Assembly: GCA_030017955.1 (NCBI GenBank) | Contig: JASEGR010000012.1 | Location: 1-47,451, forward strand | Reading direction: 5' to 3' | Length of the DNA stretch: 47,451 bases | Source of the DNA: Candidatus Eisenbacteria bacterium | GTDB taxonomy: Bacteria > Eisenbacteria > RBG-16-71-46 > JASEGR01 | Shown here: in pieces, positions 3,046 through 23,939 of the stretch | How the letters are laid out: each line of letters starts with the position of its first letter | Numbering within the stretch: the first letter of the stretch is position 1 | Translations under genes and position numbers: made by a program | The notes under the pieces: model-generated | Told to the model about the DNA's origin: nothing | Database searches by the model: none | What the model saw: the letters and a program-made list of their open reading frames with translations, nothing else

Positions 3046-3240
3046 GAGTTAGCCTGTAAAGAGATTTTACAATCCCGTTCTTTCATCGTTCCAGCCCTCT
3101 CAAGTCGTCCGTGACTCGTTGATTTTACGTGTACTTACACGGCAGGAGGCGACCACTACGAGGCATCAACCAATGACAAAGAAGGGATACTATTCAAGAG
3201 TCAAGAGACTGGAACACTGGGCTGACAGAAAGAGGAAAGA

Positions 3241-6200
3241 CTACCGCCTCTGCTTTTTTCTGCGGTCTATCCCAAGGACTTTTATCTTTGAGAGGAGGGT
3301 TGGATAGCTGATTTCGAGAGTCCTGGCTGCCTTGGACTTATTCCAGTTGCTCTTTCGCAGCGCGTCGAGTATCACACGGCGCTCGGTTTTCTCAACCTCG
3401 GTTTTCAGTTCACTCCCATTCCCATTCGGCGTGGGCTCCTCGTGCTTTTCGCCAACGTCGTGAGGAAGAAGCCTACTCGTAAGCTCTTCTCCCTCCTCAG
3501 CCAGGACGATCATTCTCTTGACCGTCTTCTCAAGCTCTCTCACATTTCCACGCCACTCATGATCAACCATCCTCGCCATCAGCTCACGCGAGATTCCGCC
3601 AACTTTCTTTCCAAGTTGAACCGCGTGGAGCTTCAGGAAATGGTTCGCAAGTAGGGGGATGTCCTCTTTGCGTTCCCTCAAAGGAGGTACTCTGACCGAT
3701 ATGTCATTCAGCCGGTAGAAGAGATCTTCCAGAAACCCGCCGGCCCTGATTTTGTCTGGGAGATCGGTGTTGGTTGCGCAAATCACTCTCACGTCAACCT
3801 TCTTCCATTTCACGCCGCCGACCGGCCTCATCTCCTGCTTATCGAGGAAATGAAGAAGTTTGCTCTGTACCGCAGGAGTTATCTTCTCGATTTCATCAAG
3901 GAATACGGTCCCTTGATCTGCTTCTTCCAAAAGGCCGACCTTGGTTCTCGTGGCCCCGGTGAATGCTCCATGGACATGTCCGAAGAGCTCGCTTTCAAGA
4001 AGAGGCTCGGGCAAGGCAGCGCAGTTTATCTGAACGAATTTTTTCTCTCTCCTGGGGCTTGCCTCATGCACAACCTGGGCTATTAGGCCTTTTCCGGTTC
4101 CGGTTTCACCCTCAAGCAGGATCGTCGCAGAGCTCGCACTGACTTTTTCCATCATGTTCAGGACTTTGAGCATCTCTGCATCCTGGGTCACAACTCTGTC
4201 GAAGTGCGCGCTGGGGTAAAGTTTCTCTTTAAGAGCCTGGTTCTCCCTGAGAAGGCTCGCCTTTTCCTGTTCGACGAGGGCAACAACTGCAATCGTTGAT
4301 ATGCACGTAAGAATATCTATCTCGCTTTTCCCGAATATTCCCCTGCCGGAGTTCCTTGACCTGTCAACATAGATGATACCGTTCGGACCGGAGAGAAGAC
4401 CTATTGGAAAAGCGATGAAACTCAGAGTACTGGAGAGCTTGTGGTCACCATTCAAGAACCGGTTGTCTTCGAAAGCTCTGGTCGAAATGCGCGGTTTAGG
4501 TTTTCCATCGCCCTCAGAAGGGATGCTTATGAGCGAGAGCACCCTCTCCGACTCAGCCACGCTCATGCCCTTTGTCGCCAGGACTACCCAACCCTTTCCA
4601 TCGGAGCGGCCTGCAAGGAATCCTCTATCCGCCGCCGTCTTTCCAACGGCTGTGGCGAGAATTCCGGAAACAAGAGATTCCGGCGATCCTCCGCCTCCGA
4701 ACAGTCTGTTCATTTCCTCGACGAGGCGAAGCTCGTCTTTTTCCGTGTCGATATGTTTGACGTAGTTCGACTCAATGGCTTTCCTGACGAGGCCGACTTC
4801 TTTCTTCAGTTCATCCTCACCGGAAGTGAGAAGTCTTTCTGCGTGCTCGAGCTCGGTAAGCGCCTCGTCGTTAAGGCCCCTGATGAGGTCTAGTCTCGCA
4901 AGCGAAACAAGGGTCTCCCCAATCCACCCTCGAAGGCCAAGTCCCTTGAGCATTGACAGTGCTTTCTCAAGGTATGTCCTCGCCCTCTCGCCATTCCCTG
5001 CGTCGGCGTTGTCTCCAGTCAGCGAGTCAAGATACAGCCTTCCGGAAAGAAGAAAGGTTTTCGCTAATTCGAACCTGTCGCCGTGTCCCTCGAGGAGTAC
5101 GGCCGCCTTACCCAGGAGCTCTTCACAACCATCCCACGCTCCCTTTCTGCCCAGTGCCAGACCCATGACTCTCAGACAAGTTCCCTCTTCACCATAATTT
5201 GCGGACTCTCTCGTAGCTGAGAGCGAATAGTCGGCACAAGAGAATGCTTCGTCGAGCTCGCCCTTGGCAAGCTTGACCTCAGCCAATCTCCTGCCCACTT
5301 CTCCCACGAGATCTCCCTTGGGGGCAATCTCGTTGGCCAGTTCGAGCGCGCACTCCAGCTTGGCCTCAGCTTCGGCAAGATTCTTTCTCTCAAGCTCAAC
5401 CTCTCCGGCAAACTCCAGGGAAAGAACCTCTTCTCTCCTGTATCCATTCTCGATAGATTTCGCAAGAGTCTCACCAAGAACTGAAAGAGCTCTGTCAAAC
5501 TGTCTTTCTCTGATGAGGATCAGGGAAGCTGCAACCTGTGCCTTTACAACGCCGGCCTTGCCTCCGATATCGGTGAAGATCCTCACGCTTCTATCAAGGT
5601 ACTCTCTCGCGAGGTCCCAGGAGCCGAGTTTCAAATGAACGATTCCCAGGTTGAGCGAGTGCGAGGCAACTTTTGAGTAGTCTCCGGTCCGCTCGCTCAG
5701 ACGCATGGCTTTCTCGAGGAAACCTACTGCCTGTCTGAGTTCACCCAGGTTCTTGTGAACGACGCCGAGATTATTGAGAGCCCTTGCTATTCCCTCGTTG
5801 TCATCAATCCTGCGGAAGGTAGAGAGTGCATTTTCGTAGTATTCTCTTGCCTTCGGGAGCTGACCCATTCTTGTGTGAATGTTGCCAAGATAGAGCTCGA
5901 CGTTTCCAATCTCTTCGTTTTCGCTAGTACCTTTGAGCAGGGCATAAGCTAGGTTCAACGCCCTCAAGCTTCTTGAATACTGCCCCATCTCGGAATAGAC
6001 CGAACCCTGAAGTGCGAAGAGCTTGCCAAGGTCCGGCCCCCTGTCGGAGCGCAAGAGAGACCTGCCCCGTCTCAAATAGGAGAGGGCTCTCGAATAGTCA
6101 CCCTTTTTTCTGTAACAGAAGGCAAGCCTGTGCAGGATGTTTGAAGCTCTCTGAGGATATAAGTGGAGCGAATCCAGCGAGCCGAGTGCTTTTTCGAAAT

Positions 6201-21787: not shown

Positions 21788-23083
<1,296 letters not shown>

Positions 23084-23147: not shown

Positions 23148-23492
23148 ATGAGCACCGCTGAGAGAATCGCCTCAAGAAAGCTCTATCGCTACAGGAAACC
23201 GACGTATCCTGGTCAGTCACGAGCGCGAAGGCTTATTATTATTTTTCTCGTACTCTGGGTCGGCTACATTTTTATCGGAGGCCGCCACGGAATCATAAAG
23301 ATCATCACCCTCCACAGAGAAAAAGCCCGGCTCGAAAAGAGAGAAGCGGAGTTGAGAGGGAAACTCAAGGAGCTTGAGCTCCAGTCAAAGCTCATGCAGA
23401 AGGACCCCTTTTACATCGAAAAAGTAGCAAGGGAAGACTTCGGACTCGCCAAAAAGGGCGAGATAATCTACAGAATGCAGAACAGCAAGTAG
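23148..23492 (+). CDS. FtsB/DivIC-like septum formation initiator
   Basis: A 114-residue bitopic division protein. Residues 1-28 are a basic cytoplasmic stretch, 29-47 the single membrane helix (IIIFLVLWVGYIFIGG), and about 50-85 a Glu/Lys/Arg-rich coiled coil. The C-terminal KDPFYIEKVAREDFGLAKKGEIIY is the conserved block of the family. FtsB/DivIC forms the FtsQ-FtsL-FtsB complex that activates septal peptidoglycan synthesis. Its place after eno matches the classical eno-ftsB arrangement. The upstream ribosome-binding site is modest (GAGAG). Confidence 0.88.
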   Translation: MSTAERIASRKLYRYRKPTYPGQSRARRLIIIFLVLWVGYIFIGGRHGIIKIITLHREKARLEKREAELRGKLKELELQSKLMQKDPFYIEKVAREDFGLAKKGEIIYRMQNSK

Positions 23493-23575: not shown

Positions 23576-23939
23576 TGCGGGGTGGAGCAGTCTGGTAGCT
23601 CGTTGGGCTCAATCCGCAGAGTCAGCTGTGAATTCGCTTTCCGCCAATCAGCGTGATACGTTGAATCTGACTCTGCATGGGCTGCGCGCGAAGAAACTCG
23701 TGCGCGACGACCTGTCAAAGTCGGGGAAGCCCCTGGCGGGGTAACCCCGAGCCAAGCTCTGAAAGTCGTAAGACCAACGGAGAAGGTGTAGAGACTTGAC
23801 GGCAGGCACCCTATCGGCGACGTCAACGGCCGAGGGTGAAGGGAAAGTCCAGACCACAAACTGGTTCGCCCAGACAGCGAAAGCTGTAGTGGCAAGCATA
23901 ACCCAAAGGTCGCTGGTTCAAATCCAGCCCCCGCTACCA
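23576..23939 (+). tRNA. Initiator tRNA-fMet (CAU), interrupted by a group I intron
   Basis: The two exons, 23576-23609 and 23897-23939, join into a 77-nt tRNA with encoded CCA. The acceptor TGCGGGG (23576-23582) pairs with CCCCGCT (23929-23935), leaving a U1-U72 mismatch. The anticodon stem is TTGGG (23603-23607) / CCCAA (23902-23906), with three consecutive G-C pairs. A non-pairing 1-72 position and three G-C pairs next to the loop are the two hallmarks of bacterial initiator tRNA. The joined loop CU-CAU-AA has anticodon CAU at 23897-23899. The T arm is GCTGG-TTCAAAT-CCAGC. The insertion lies after U33, so translation initiation would depend on splicing of this RNA unless another copy exists. 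Confidence 0.93.
23610..23896 (+). ncRNA. Group I self-splicing intron (Azoarcus-like, IC3-type)
   Basis: A 287-nt intron. The 5' exon ends in U and the last intron base is G, as group I splicing requires. GCAGAGTCAG (23615-23624) pairs perfectly with CTGACTCTGC as an extension of P1. GGGCT just after it can act as the internal guide. P3 is CCTGTC (23711-23716) with GGCAGG (23801-23806), followed by the J3/4 AAA. P5 is CCCC/GGGG. The Q-like GAGCCAAG, the R-like GGTGTAGAGACTT (23785-23797) and the S-like AAAGTCC (23844-23850) are present, with P7 GACT/AGTC. P8 is CACCC/GGGTG. P9 has an ACAGC-GAAA-GCTGT hairpin. There is no room for a homing endonuclease, so it is an immobile minimal ribozyme. 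Confidence 0.9.

Follow-up and report, generated by a model that had tools for sequence, protein, structure and literature searches.

The window, i.e. the whole stretch of DNA analysed here, comprises positions 1 to 47,451 of contig JASEGR010000012.1 from Candidatus Eisenbacteria bacterium (GCA_030017955.1); the genome is referred to as G000. Positions 23576-23939 on the forward strand hold an initiator tRNA gene, tRNA-fMet(CAU), which is split by a group I intron between U33 and C34, as seen by direct reading and in the output of ARAGORN. The 5' exon (23576-23609, +) ends in GGGCU at U33, as given by ARAGORN with introns and by the spliced cloverleaf. The 287-nt intron (23610-23896, +), supported by RF00028, the ARAGORN boundaries and homologues at the same site, has the omega-G as its last base. 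The 3' exon (23897-23939, +) begins at anticodon base C34 and encodes the CCA end. Directly upstream of the tRNA gene lies a gene for an FtsB/DivIC-like septum formation initiator (23148-23492, +; PF04977, 1.4e-19), and the enolase gene (21791-23083, +; PF00113, 5.7e-123) is also syntenic with tRNA-fMet in phylum-mates. A promoter and terminator scan gave nothing beyond chance level.

Results

An initiator tRNA gene split by a group I intron

When introns were disallowed, ARAGORN found no tRNA anywhere in the window. With introns allowed it reported a tRNA-Met(cat) gene spanning 23576-23939, interrupted by 287 nt at the junction 'gggct-Intron-cataa'. It recognised the spliced sequence of 77 nt as a complete tRNA-Met(cat) with a full cloverleaf, which agrees with the preliminary description of two initiator tRNA halves 287 nt apart; its coordinates are exact. 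Direct reading of the spliced tRNA shows the marks of an initiator: U1 and U72 leave position 1:72 without a Watson-Crick pair, A11 pairs with U24, G29-31 pair with C39-41, the anticodon is CAU, and CCA is encoded. The group I core motifs and the terminal G that had been claimed for the insert were all found there. A search with cmscan against 4227 Rfam families, a check that had been set beforehand, gave RF00028 as the sole match in the 47-kb window; it spans 23663-23870 (+), covers the whole model and scores 51.6 bits (E = 2.4e-10), barely above the cut-off of 50. The covariance-model score and the last intron base, a G at 23896, are as expected of a group I intron, and the split initiator tRNA gene is confirmed.

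Covariation supports the ribozyme fold

A model of helices P1 to P9b was written from the window sequence and then scored on an alignment of 37 introns from the same tRNA-fMet site, all of which are without an intact endonuclease gene. Read from the sequence, a P1 extension (23616-23676, +) has arms at 23616-23625 and 23667-23676, which form 10 pairs and enclose the loop of the former endonuclease gene; this extension aligned poorly and was given little weight. The internal guide sequence GGCU (23680-23683, +) pairs with GGCU of the exon and places a U.G pair at the splice site; directly before it, AUG (23677-23679, +) is able to form P10 with CAU of the 3' exon. The splice-site U.G pair of P1 is kept in all 37 introns, together with a C-G and a G-C pair. 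P2 (23684-23705, +) shows two-sided changes among relatives in seven of its eight pairs. P3 (23711-23716 with 23801-23806, +) encloses P4, P5, P6, P6a, P6b and the 5' strand of P7; it is 100% paired, with two-sided changes in 4 of 6 pairs. P7, the helix of the guanosine site (23793-23797 with 23845-23849, +), is also 100% paired, with such changes in 3 of 5 pairs, and P8 (23807-23838, +) lies with it in the interval 23793-23849. P9.0, P9 and P9b with its GAAA loop (23854-23892, +) are 89-98% paired and again show two-sided changes.

Over the 37 introns, standard pairs fill 90.8% of the cells of the model, compared with 79.5% in column shuffles and 35-45% when the partners are slid, a percentage that is biased towards the model because the latter comes from a member of the alignment itself. 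Two-sided changes are less affected by this bias; 354 were observed versus 114 after shuffling, and the covariation score was 0.359 versus 0.163. Both helices of the P3/P7 pseudoknot core are paired in all 37 introns, with compensatory changes. The P1-P9 fold therefore has strong covariation support from the 37 related introns.

The same insertion site is occupied in many phyla

In an interrupted gene the base before CATAACCC is the last G of the intron, while an intact gene has a T there. GTDB genomes were searched for GCATAACCCNNAGGNCNNNGGTTCRA, which gave at least 115 stretches, from which 80 loci were kept; the pattern partly fixes the insertion site, and not the homology of the inserts. 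In 69 of the 80 loci a 5' half ending in GGGCT was present 193-695 bases upstream, which gives at least 69 introns at the identical U33|C34 site. These fall, among the matches listed, into about 17 phylum-level groups (NCBI names), and many are from MAGs. Fifteen of the at least 69 are cyanobacterial; the Synechocystis copy itself is absent from the set. Homology of the window intron is evident from blastn (E about 1e-66 to L081, L073, L054 and L066). The 11 loci without a confirmed split gene comprise three at contig ends, two from Bifidobacterium, two from Chloroflexota and four from Acidobacteriota. The Acidobacteriota loci L058, L061, L083, L085 and L097 have what seems to be another type of intron before CATAACCC; its 3' end reads GTGAGTCAGATCG in place of GTAGTGGYAAG, and it may have invaded this site independently.

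That group I introns in tRNA-fMet are mainly known in cyanobacteria, as stated in the preliminary description, is true of the publications that we found; it does not hold for genomes, in view of the same-site homologues in about 17 phyla among the matches listed. Group I introns in tRNA-fMet are already known, and the window intron joins this known family. We found no published account of the family across this many phyla in a search conducted largely outside subscription journals.

A frameshifted remnant of a homing endonuclease gene

At least 15 of the 69 introns carry, in the P1 loop, an open reading frame of about 140-180 aa for a homing endonuclease of the I-Ssp6803I type; these introns measure 624-695 nt. 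A representative endonuclease matches PDB 2OST at 2.4e-63, and that of another relative matches PF11645 (PDDEXK_5) at 2.1e-50. The 2OST entry's own label is putative endonuclease; we take it to be I-Ssp6803I. The tRNA-fMet intron of Synechocystis PCC 6803 has 655 nt and encodes the 150-aa PD-(D/E)XK endonuclease I-Ssp6803I (PMC1995217). The reading frame in the relatives traverses the guide sequence ('..LQWAARGET' over CAATGGGCTGCG), so that the ribozyme and the end of the protein share bases. In L054, L077, L080 and L104 (introns of 645-657 nt) the frame continues past the guide through P2-P6, where the same DNA thus encodes both the protein and the core of the ribozyme.

The window intron holds no intact PD-(D/E)XK endonuclease gene, which many members of the family lack and which is not required for membership, and has only a frameshifted remnant of its 3' end in the P1 loop (23638-23667, +; TTTCCGCCAATCAGCGTGATACGTTGAATC), recognised by a matrix score and by blastn. 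The likeness of TTTCCGCCAATCAGCGTGATACGTTGAATC to the end of the endonuclease gene occurs at a constant spacing from the guide, with a shift of one base. For scoring, a matrix was built from ten intact genes and anchored to the guide; it was compared with 20,000 shuffles in which the guide-side arm was kept and the best of 7 shifts was taken. The remnant scored 14.7 at shift +1, and all other shifts gave less than -22; the shuffles had a mean of -15.8 (sd 5.9) and a maximum of 13.5, which makes this anchored test decisive. An earlier DNA test with free local alignments had given p = 0.017. The blastn alignments to L081 and L073, which carry longer remnants, extend through 23638-23667. In a protein HMM search of the window intron the remnant, which is short, was not significant. 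Together, these comparisons indicate that the window intron has lost its endonuclease and retains a frameshifted remnant of the gene. The preliminary account had been silent on the tie to the mobile I-Ssp6803I family, on the decayed endonuclease gene and on the signs of transfer described below.

No second initiator tRNA gene detected in the draft assembly

The draft of G000 has 3.1 Mb in 248 contigs and is 97.29% complete, with 2.59% contamination. Its tRNA inventory contains 44 uninterrupted genes; two of them have a CAU anticodon, and neither is an initiator by sequence. In BLAST searches of the assembly with the spliced tRNA, the two halves of the window gene were the only strong matches of full identity, and a pattern search of G000 found no intact 'CTCATAACCC...' gene. 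The earlier suggestion that this may be the sole initiator tRNA is thus borne out for the assembly by three approaches, with the reservation that a second copy could sit in a gap of the draft genome. Since no other initiator gene was found, initiation of translation is expected to depend on splicing of the intron. Genes for tRNA-Trp, tRNA-Gly(GCC), tRNA-Gly(UCC) and tRNA-Thr(GGU) were likewise not found in the 97.29% complete assembly. Interrupted genes were considered as the source of these isoacceptors, and none was present at orphan T-arm sites, which proved to belong to a SeC tRNA and to one doubtful prediction; assembly gaps or other types of intron are possible explanations.

The same situation recurs among the relatives. 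With the exact pattern, no intact initiator gene was found in 49 of the 50 carrier genomes tested, a search that could have missed some intact copies because the sensitivity of the pattern is about 79% (allowing either base, it was present in 303 of 385 genomes at large). In those genomes at large nearly all genes are intact among the matches listed. The exception among the 50 carriers is a Gloeobacterales MAG (G107, the genome of L120), which has an interrupted as well as an intact tRNA-fMet gene; the latter may be a genuine second copy or a sign that the bin is contaminated.

Further group I introns in the genome

Three further group I introns of G000 score above the Rfam cut-off. On contig C50 (L001; 1453-1773, minus strand) a 246-nt intron (match 1501-1750, RF00028, 81 bits) splits a tRNA-Asn(GUU) gene between U35 and U36. 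The spliced product is tRNA-Asn(GUU), and G000 yielded no further tRNA for Asn; the call of a 'tRNA-Thr with intron' by ARAGORN was rejected. The literature that we found names bacterial introns in tRNAs for Leu, fMet, Arg, Ile, Gly and Lys, and does not name Asn. A pattern search for tRNA-Asn introns in other carriers gave eight matches in seven genomes; the pattern is unspecific, because all eight are intact tRNA-Thr genes. Contig C117 (L022) has two group I introns in the 23S rRNA gene, at 3050-3344 and 4443-4743 (67.5 and 74.1 bits), after GTAACTATA and CTGGGGCGGTC; no long ORF occurs in the matched stretches. In blastn the C50 intron and both C117 introns are unlike the fMet intron and unlike each other, and they therefore look like separate acquisitions. 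Group I-like matches of 32-47 bits, below the cut-off, occur in the 23S rRNA region of three other genomes (L012/G012:C22, L004/G020:C73 and L002/G055:C25; loci L003, L004 and L002); two of these genomes belong to the same class as the window genome.

The intron sits in an inherited gene

A tree of intron cores places the window intron in a clade (support 98/96) with eight Nitrospirota, two Methylomirabilota and one Chloroflexota among the matches listed. Its best match among those listed, 88% identical over 207 columns, is a 650-nt intron with an endonuclease gene from an Anaerolineales MAG. The phylum sample consisted of 47 genomes of one class, and in the 38 phylum-mates with a detectable site this site is intact throughout; because the sample contains no genus- or family-mate of the window genome, the timing of the intron gain is coarse. 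In four phylum-mates (G003, G007, G012 and G020) an intact tRNA-fMet gene is located near the enolase gene, as in the window, and the tRNA is identical to the spliced window tRNA in 66-74 of 77 positions (74 in G012). Intact genes close to enolase with a similar tRNA indicate that the intron sits in an inherited gene. Since all sampled phylum-mates with a detectable site are intact, a gain by endonuclease-driven transfer is the most likely origin of the intron.

Discussion

The data are best explained, with a high degree of confidence, by a mobile intron of the tRNA-fMet/I-Ssp6803I family that most likely homed from another phylum, has since lost its endonuclease, and would splice to give an initiator tRNA; splicing, the route of homing and the dependence of initiation on splicing are inferred. 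Group I introns are removed by two transesterifications, the first of which is begun by guanosine. In the window the transcribed intron would fold into P1-P9, and a guanosine would attack 3' of U33, where P1 has its U.G pair. The 5' exon thus released would then attack after the omega-G (23896), with P10 aligning the exons; this would join the tRNA halves to a normal initiator tRNA and release the 287-nt intron. The intron most likely came from a bacterium in a different phylum and, driven by its endonuclease, homed into the intact, inherited eno-ftsB-tRNA-fMet locus. The endonuclease would have been lost afterwards, with a short frameshifted remnant staying in the P1 loop.

Other explanations were weighed against this one. 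The interrupted gene could be a dead pseudogene, with an intact initiator gene in the missing part of the assembly; a draft of 248 contigs with 97.29% completeness, in which the Trp, Gly and Thr tRNAs mentioned above are also not found, leaves room for this. However, the exons form a perfect initiator tRNA, identical to that of G012 in 74 of 77 positions, the pairs of the ribozyme core are preserved, and 49 of 50 carriers tested show no intact copy either, which makes a pseudogene highly unlikely. The contig might also be foreign DNA in the bin, for instance of Nitrospirota, where the nearest relatives of the intron occur. The bin has 2.59% contamination, and the enolase is equally close to two Nitrospirota (64%) and to phylum-mates (62-65%). 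Composition and gene neighbourhood speak against contamination: the tetranucleotide correlation is 0.81 with other G000 contigs compared with at most 0.51 with the contigs of the 80 loci, GC is 52.1% in the contig and 53.3% in the genome, and the one enolase gene and the one initiator gene of G000 are both on this contig. We consider a foreign contig extremely improbable.

If the intron were instead ancestral in the phylum and lost from every other sampled member, no recent transfer would be needed. Loss in all phylum-mates would yield the same pattern, the core is intact and covarying, and the sample without a genus- or family-mate dates the gain only coarsely. But many losses would be required to leave 38 of 38 detectable sites intact; furthermore, the nearest introns among the matches listed are in three other phyla, one of them with an endonuclease, and the endonuclease remnant is still readable. 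This history is accordingly quite improbable. An equally small chance is given to the idea that the intron is retained since guanosine-dependent splicing regulates the supply of initiator tRNA. It would fit with the fact that the only initiator gene found is interrupted in nearly all carriers, and that copies without an endonuclease but with a kept core are common; yet the homing life cycle accounts for this pattern without regulation, and selection for splicing is expected anyway after a hit in a sole essential gene. On a broader scale one may speculate, at odds that are slim, that a pan-bacterial selfish intron has repeatedly captured the sole initiator gene, and that its guanosine-dependent ribozyme step, through which initiation would have to pass, has become a point of control that couples initiation to the supply of nucleotides.

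With homing and later loss of the endonuclease as the preferred reading, the locus is an example of a selfish RNA in the apparent only copy of a highly indispensable gene; a failure of splicing in this copy should halt protein synthesis. The results suggest that an interrupted sole initiator gene is a recurrent state, at one junction in about 17 phyla among the matches listed and nearly always with no intact copy found. This makes the tRNA-fMet intron family well suited to testing the way in which essential genes present in one copy are invaded by homing elements. It also lends itself to tests of how the endonucleases of such elements are gained, decay and are lost, because their genes are found intact, truncated and as remnants at a single site. 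A practical consequence is that a standard tRNA finder misses the interrupted gene, and genomes of this kind are then annotated as having no initiator tRNA; the same blind spot was reported with tRNAscan-SE 2.0 for 36 genomes with fMet or Ile2 introns (PMC8450103).

Comparison with known systems

Among known tRNA introns, the window intron differs in gene and position from those in tRNA-Leu(UAA) of cyanobacteria and plastids, which are small group I introns in the anticodon loop; here they are set apart by description. The group IC3 intron in tRNA-Ile(CAU) of Azoarcus presumably resembles the window intron in its core motifs and GNRA loops. It resides in a different tRNA and is inserted after the anticodon, whereas the window intron precedes the anticodon. 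The tRNA-fMet family was first described in cyanobacteria. The intron of Synechocystis PCC 6803, compared here by description, occupies the same host gene, and relatives of 645-657 nt found here carry a gene of about 150 aa that matches 2OST; the window intron differs from it in having a remnant instead of an intact endonuclease gene and in belonging to a non-cyanobacterial phylum. The tRNA-fMet introns of cyanobacteria such as Nostoc, Oscillatoria and Gloeobacterales (L046, L048, L053, L120 and others) share the U33|C34 site, the core helices and the 3' end GUAGUGGYAAG|CAU with the window intron. Its core, however, is separate from the cyanobacterial cores and groups with those from Nitrospirota, Methylomirabilota and Chloroflexota.
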